From contig CALVCQ010000004.1 of the NCBI GenBank assembly GCA_944326115.1, positions 1-64,000 on the forward strand: 64,000 nt of DNA. Direction: 5' to 3'. The position numbers and the translations under genes were made by a program. Of this stretch, positions 13,556 to 47,389 are shown piece by piece (within the stretch, counting starts at the first letter, position 1; every line of letters begins with the position of its first letter). The stretch is from Candidatus Gastranaerophilales bacterium (GTDB taxonomy: Bacteria > Cyanobacteriota > Vampirovibrionia > Gastranaerophilales > Gastranaerophilaceae). The notes under the pieces are model-generated. The model did not search any database, was not told the DNA's origin, and saw nothing but the letters and a program-made list of their open reading frames with translations.

Positions 13556-13733
13556 ATTTTCATATTGTCAACTGACTCCGACTACTTGTTGAACCTGTGC
13601 AATAAGCAAGTTCAATATTTAACAATAAGTCCGGCACAGTCAACAAGCGCATGGGGTCACTTCCGTAAAATGCTAGACTCGGCGCCACTCGCACTCCGTG
13701 TACCACTCCTACAAGCGAGGTCCCACTCAGACA
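13556..13733. repeat. 178-bp dispersed repeat, copy 1
   Basis: Identical base for base to 47191-47368 and in the same orientation. It is visibly GC-richer than its surroundings. A long imperfect stem forms from 13585-13600 (CTTGTTGAACCTGTGC) with 13634-13647 (GCACAGTCAACAAG), 14 pairs with a 2-base bulge and a 33-base loop. The innermost ends read TGTC...GACA. On the minus strand the far edge contains TTGACA, a perfect -35 box, pointing toward the gene at 12386. Open frames cross it on both strands, but these look like by-products. The remaining 183 bases to pnp show nothing else. Confidence 0.95.
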
Positions 13734-13916
13734 ATCTATATAGACTAAAACATTAAAAAAACAAATTATTGTGTTATTTTATTCACTAGCCTGCAATTTG
13801 TAAAAAATTATTAAGAAGCTGTTTTTTCTTAAACAGATTGTTCAAAAGCACATGTTTAATATATACTTTAAAAGAACACAGTAAAAGTGCAAGTAGAAAA
13901 GAAAAAGGAAAAAAAC

Positions 13917-47190: not shown

Positions 47191-47368
47191 ATTTTCATAT
47201 TGTCAACTGACTCCGACTACTTGTTGAACCTGTGCAATAAGCAAGTTCAATATTTAACAATAAGTCCGGCACAGTCAACAAGCGCATGGGGTCACTTCCG
47301 TAAAATGCTAGACTCGGCGCCACTCGCACTCCGTGTACCACTCCTACAAGCGAGGTCCCACTCAGACA
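47191..47368. repeat. 178-bp dispersed repeat, copy 2
   Basis: Base-for-base identical to 13556-13733 and in the same orientation. It occupies the gap between obg and the PfkB gene. The outer flanks differ immediately on both sides, which fixes the ends of the unit; no flanking target-site duplication of more than a few bases is evident. The minus-strand TTGACA at its edge points toward the PfkB kinase gene. Apart from the repeat, the gap 47072-47389 holds AT-rich sequence only. Confidence 0.95.
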
Positions 47369-47389
47369 TATATAAAGATATCGCTTTTA

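Follow-up and report, generated by a model that had tools for sequence, protein, structure and literature searches.

Two 178-bp stretches (13556-13733 and 47191-47368) of the window, which is the whole 64,000-nt stretch of Candidatus Gastranaerophilales DNA analyzed here, are identical base for base, and this raises the question of what such a repeat is and how it moves. A sequence-only reading had noticed this identity and had proposed a non-autonomous mobile element, a structured RNA gene, or a portable promoter. Its description of the two copies was correct: the repeat is GC-richer than its surroundings (47% compared to 30-36% in the flanks), a left-facing TTGACA lies at the left edge of both copies, and both lie upstream of a minus-strand gene, with their left ends facing the gene start. 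The element proper is 177 bp long, because some copies lack base 1 (A) of the 178-bp stretch and empty sites set the boundary after this base, which is thus flank; matches outside the window often cover only bases 2-178. Its plus-strand termini are TTTTCATATTGTCAACTGACTCC...ACAAGCGAGGTCCCACTCAGACA, and read on the minus strand it is 5'-TGTCTGAGTGGGAC...GTTGACAATATGAAAA-3' (Table 1). We conclude that the repeat is a non-autonomous mobile element, which is strongly supported by its ≈150 copies, its empty sites, the genes that it interrupts, and its occurrence in one genus.

Table 1. Features of the two element copies in the window, and paired empty and filled sites
Feature	Position	Strand	Basis
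Element copy 1, 177 bp, TTTTCATATTGTC...CTCAGACA	13557..13733	+	Boundary from genome matches and empty sites
Left subterminal hairpin, copy 1 (TGACTCC/GGGGTCA, CTTGTTG/CAACAAG, CTGTGC/GCACAG)	13573..13659	+	Pairing; compensatory changes at two pairs of inner helix
Right subterminal hairpin, copy 1 (CTCGC/GCGAG)	13688..13719	+	One C-G to U-A compensatory pair
Target tetranucleotide of copy 1, ATCT (T at +4)	13734..13737	+	Flank logo, 61 sites
Element copy 2, identical to copy 1	47192..47368	+	Sequence identity
Left subterminal hairpin, copy 2	47208..47294	+	Same sequence as copy 1, offset 33635
Right subterminal hairpin, copy 2	47323..47354	+	Same sequence as copy 1, offset 33635
Target tetranucleotide of copy 2, TATA (minority site without T at +4)	47369..47372	+	Flank logo, 61 sites
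Empty/filled pair, ATTATCAAT|ATATTAAATC (| = insertion point)			Empty in L136, counterpart filled in L120
Empty/filled pair, TTGCAA|ATTGTTC			L139 vs. L152
Empty/filled pair, TATACA|ACTTTACAC			L124 vs. L148

Amplification of the element within one genus

The host assembly (G000, a Gastranaerophilales MAG of 2.15 Mb, 96% complete) is fragmented into 92 contigs and was covered by fetched stretches and searches. Counted as ends in this fragmented MAG, copies amount to 148 left ends (LE) and 134 right ends (RE), almost all identical, which corresponds to ≈1 copy every 14 kb, or some 1.3% of the genome; at least 40 matches show 100% identity. Among 62 complete copies examined, 48 have the identical 177-bp form, 2 are 177-bp variants with one or two differences, 8 have an identical 213-bp form, and 4 have a 266-bp form. 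Older, diverged, longer copies of up to 654 bp are also present, and none of the full-length forms examined (≈172-654 bp) contains a plausible gene. Many host contigs end inside an element copy, and the element explains the fragmentation of these genomes in short-read assembly.

The element family is confined to one genus, with matches in 18 of 22 relatives of that genus and none in genomes of other genera. The version is homogeneous within a species and differs between species, mostly with 82-96% identity to the window element over the full length. Recent spread, one of the two implications that the sequence-only reading drew from the perfect identity, is borne out as a recent mass amplification: in these gut relatives of Cyanobacteria, an element without genes has multiplied across the genome very recently. 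The chance or assembly-derived duplication that the same reading had named as its refuting outcome is opposed by the ≈150 copies, by the distinct flanks of the 62 complete ones, and by the independent assembly of the relatives that carry the element.

Among named records, those that match a 20-mer of the left end exactly are mostly Candidatus Gastranaerophilales MAGs. Many element copies are also carried by CAMEWS01 records (L031, L054, and others) of a MAG titled 'uncultured Clostridia bacterium', and this title is probably wrong, because the copies are those of a Gastranaerophilales element. In one relative (G021), copies are spread very unevenly, at ≈1 per 8 kb in contigs C7, C10, C14, C15, and C17 and only three in 680 kb elsewhere (C1 and C2). 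Spread by phages or plasmids was rejected, since no match was found in phages, plasmids, or IMG/VR, the last scanned with one exact 20-mer.

Exact insertion, target motif, and strand bias

The comparison of sites with and without the element, which the sequence-only reading had suggested as a check, shows that insertion is exact. Other dispersed repeats of the host genome served as empty sites, as they are uninterrupted at the corresponding point; when the flanks of the filled counterpart are joined, they match the empty site without gain or loss of bases. Likewise, five insertions lie in four genes (FkbM-like, nitroreductase-like, UvrD-like helicase, and radical-SAM-like, named by inspection of their translations), where the joined flanks give stop-free frames of 172-487 codons and the reading frames are restored only if a duplication of 0 (or 3) bases is assumed. 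The radical-SAM-like gene was struck twice, 166 bp apart (L128:8864-9418 in the host genome). Empty sites and restored frames together imply zero target duplication. Intron-like behavior was rejected, since the copies that interrupt genes run both with and against the gene. Terminal inverted repeats are absent, as the ends TTTTCATATTGTC and CTCAGACA have only the 4-base complement TGTC/GACA in common. An ordinary MITE of a DDE transposon would likewise be short, high in copy number, and free of coding sequence; however, the lack of both terminal inverted repeats and target duplication, together with the evidence against assembly duplication given above, makes either origin highly improbable.

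The interrupted genes also bear on the portable promoter, by which a regulatory cassette would have spread for its function and kept its identity by selection. The outward TTGACA, the mostly intergenic position of the copies, and the minus-strand gene starts faced by both window copies are as this reading would predict. Yet left ends face a gene start in 34 of 59 copies (58%), compared to 62% expected from intergenic space (gene calls followed a simple ORF rule and include artifact ORFs running through the element), only 13 of the 26 aligned elements keep TTGACA intact, and several copies interrupt genes. We give this reading almost no credence.

Insertion sites share a one-sided motif. In the right flank, T occupies position +4 at 54 of 61 sites compared to a background of 32% (binomial p=4e-20), and at 42 of 52 sites in the relatives. 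This is the only one of the four positions of the target tetranucleotide that is strongly conserved, and the left flank is AT-rich with no further motif. Viewed on the minus strand, an A stands at -4, 5' of the element, and insertion occurs 3' of A-W-W-W. The element's own minus-strand 3' end is GAAAA, or GAAAT in most relatives, a tetranucleotide similar to the target.

Copy orientation was compared with GC skew, a noisy proxy for replication direction. In G021, which has long contigs and a clean skew, each of the 30 plus copies falls within negative skew. Positive skew holds just 5 copies, every one of them minus, and the other 9 minus copies sit in negative skew (Fisher p=0.002); the sign rule thus fails for 9 of the 14 minus copies of G021, and also for window copy 1. 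In the host genome, skew differs with copy orientation (p=0.0003 with 8-kb flanks; p=0.01 with 10-kb flanks and elements masked), and 8-kb loci of four relatives show the same tendency less strongly (p=0.08). Neighbors along a contig tend to have the same orientation (28 of 37 pairs, p=0.003), and orientation has no bias relative to flanking genes (17 vs. 13). By the GC-skew proxy, then, copies are oriented with replication, and since orientation follows skew and not the adjacent genes, the minus strand is the G-rich strand and the lagging-strand template, the same strand that carries the A-W-W-W target. IS608 and ISDra2 target the lagging-strand template beside a tetranucleotide, and the hairpins near their ends are bound (PMC6006769). 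Because target motif and skew bias point to the same strand, the element probably enters single-stranded DNA at the replication fork, as these two elements are documented to do.

Covarying hairpins and the search for a mobilizing enzyme

Two hairpins lie near the ends of the element: the first starts at element base 17, and the second ends 14 bases from the right end. Both are kept in 26 elements from many species, with 98.6% of cells paired. Double changes occur in 17 cells compared to 4 in shuffles, and the covariation score, another check that had been proposed, is 0.110 compared to 0.044 in shuffles, with 0 of 500 reaching 0.110. The inner left helix, for example, changes from CTG/CAG to GGG/CCC and GAG/CTC between elements. 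The strong fold noticed earlier thus stands as far as its stem is concerned (CTTGTTGA..TGTGC paired with GCACAG..TCAACAAG), which is present and shows compensatory substitution. By contrast, exceptional thermodynamic stability was rejected, since the folds of the two strands are not significantly better than those of shuffled sequences (z of -1.5 and -1.2). Most G-T wobbles fall on the plus strand (UG at columns 20/103, GU at 23/100). An invariant ATTTT stands on the minus strand 7 nt from the foot of the left hairpin, and by inspection no convincing guide tetranucleotide of the IS608 kind was found at both hairpin feet. The longer forms of the element carry extra hairpin blocks at fixed places inside or between the palindromes. 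Beside tRNA genes (L163 and L168), the hairpin module (feet CCTCTC and CTCGGCAGAG) stands alone as well, and in L163 it takes the place of the T-loop in a partial tRNA duplicate.

Subterminal hairpins are expected no less of a single-strand DNA transposon than of a structured RNA gene, and the element has no match in Rfam; the RNA-gene reading is unsupported. A related reading is a retrotransposed structured RNA (bacterial SINE-like), whose plus-strand RNA would be reverse transcribed at a nick after AWWW. The plus-strand G-U pairs of the covarying hairpins, the one-sided target motif, and the successive homogeneous subfamilies of each species are consistent with this. However, the ends are always exact, with neither duplication nor deletion of the target, the Rfam result offers no help, and a reverse transcriptase (RVT_1) is absent from 20 of 23 genomes, including the host; we therefore regard this origin as very unlikely.

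Six enzyme families were searched across the genus (PF01797, PF00078, PF07282, PF02371, PF00239, and PF00589), and none of them follows element abundance. TnpB (PF07282) and IS110 transposase are each absent from 22 of the 23 genomes, including the host. The host genome encodes one serine recombinase and three tyrosine recombinases, of which two have XerC/XerD-like length and occur in nearly all genomes and one is a phage-type integrase. Serine recombinases were rejected as mobilizers, because they are absent from G003 and G010, which are both rich in copies. An autonomous version of the element was not found either: LE-to-RE spans of >450 bp at all examined loci were only non-coding, hairpin-rich forms no longer than 654 bp, or remnants of an LE next to ordinary genes. 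Also rejected was an enzyme encoded between closely spaced copies, where ordinary host genes lie.

A further candidate is the RAYT (TnpA-REP) of the genus itself. The element would then be of REP/REPIN type, and the gene for its enzyme would either be missing from the assembly or have died recently. Of the 23 genomes, 8 have RAYT-like Y1 genes. In G012 (L162:1150-2190), an intact RAYT (1468-2010) lies between two direct element copies, the second of which starts directly after the RAYT stop codon. Short-read binning would lose such a gene with identical copies on both sides, and this, with the G012 arrangement, keeps RAYT a candidate. The host genome retains two short RAYT fragments at contig ends (C15:72-164 in L187 and C35:76-150 in L196); each directly abuts an element, and the dead host RAYT was thus apparently split by a long form of it. 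Against this reading, no intact Y1 gene (PF01797) was found in the host genome or in the copy-rich G003, G007, G008, G010, G014, and G021, whereas G002, G009, and G020 have a RAYT and only one or two weak matches to the element. Moreover, several inspected RAYTs adjoin a different REP of their own (TGTAGGTTGGG...CCCAACC), and the element, which occurs as single copies and not as paired inverted REPs, greatly exceeds a REP in length. On balance, we consider RAYT an unlikely mobilizer. Separately, a REP family (TGTAGGTTGGGG..CCCCAACA) adjoins RAYT genes of the genus (L163, L165, and L166).

As a less likely possibility, we entertain a type of enzyme so far not known to move transposons, maybe an undescribed HUH protein or one of the host's replication or repair enzymes. 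Mass single-strand transposition would then be proceeding in several species without a recognizable Y1, TnpB, IS110, or reverse transcriptase.

The reading that we favor as probable is that of a non-autonomous, protein-less, PATE-like transposable element that moves as single-stranded DNA. The element has exact ends, zero target duplication, a one-sided motif, a strand bias by GC skew, covarying hairpins, and a recent mass amplification; from these we infer a single-strand intermediate, an active strand, and HUH-type chemistry. The active strand would be the minus strand (5'-TGTCTGAGTGGGAC...GTTGACAATATGAAAA-3'). A trans-acting endonuclease/strand-transferase would recognize the two subterminal hairpins and cleave at the element ends, and the single-stranded element would be inserted exactly 3' of A-W-W-W (usually AAAT, AATT, or ATAT) in the lagging-strand template, where replication would then make it double stranded. 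Speaking against this model are the plus-strand G-T wobbles, which do not favor the minus strand as the structured one, the copy-rich genomes without an intact Y1, the IS608-type guide that was not found at both feet, and the noise and exceptions in the GC-skew rule.

Comparison with known systems

MITEs of DDE type have terminal inverted repeats and target duplications, both of which the element lacks. With REP/REPIN sequences and their RAYTs it shares palindromic repeats in high copy number that lie mostly between genes and could be moved only in trans, in a genus that has RAYTs. However, it is 177 bp long compared to 20-65 nt, is not built of paired inverted REPs, has no GT[AG]G (GTAG) at the hairpin foot, and resides in a genome without an intact RAYT. 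BOX and other modular bacterial repeats are built from blocks, as the element is, and are likened to it by architecture alone.

The likeness to IS200/IS605 elements (IS608 and ISDra2) lies in the single-strand logic: subterminal hairpins, a bias to the lagging-strand template (for the element, by the GC-skew proxy), and the lack of target duplication. The tetranucleotide beside one end, with a similar one at the other end, is a partial likeness, as only one of its four positions is strongly conserved. By contrast, the element has neither tnpA nor tnpB, no Y1 HUH transposase is encoded in it or in a full-length relative, its target is weak (only A at -4 is strong), its hairpins are much larger, and no convincing guide was identified.

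The closest known system is that of the PATEs (palindrome-associated transposable elements) of Haloquadratum walsbyi (PMC3119063), as judged by anatomy. Like PATEs, the element has near-terminal palindromes without terminal inverted repeats, makes no target duplication, has no transposase gene inside and is too short to code, forms homogeneous high-copy types, and has a short target sequence at one end. In both, smaller repeats invade the palindromes, namely SMR-A in Haloquadratum (PMC3119063) and the hairpin modules here. The element differs in being bacterial and in having ≈150 copies of one type with near-zero divergence. Archaeal PATEs moreover share their ends with IS605 elements, whereas no IS605-type transposon with matching ends was found here, nor any longer element with the same ends in the examined loci. 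For this reason, we propose PATE-like action for the element without assigning it to IS200/IS605. In Haloquadratum, PATE mobility is seen although IS200-type transposases are nearly all pseudogenes (PMC3119063). The element likewise bears the signature of replication-coupled single-strand transposition without a known transposase, and the puzzle of the Haloquadratum PATEs thus recurs in a bacterium, where it is now testable because of the parallel bursts in several species and the intact RAYT between two copies in G012.
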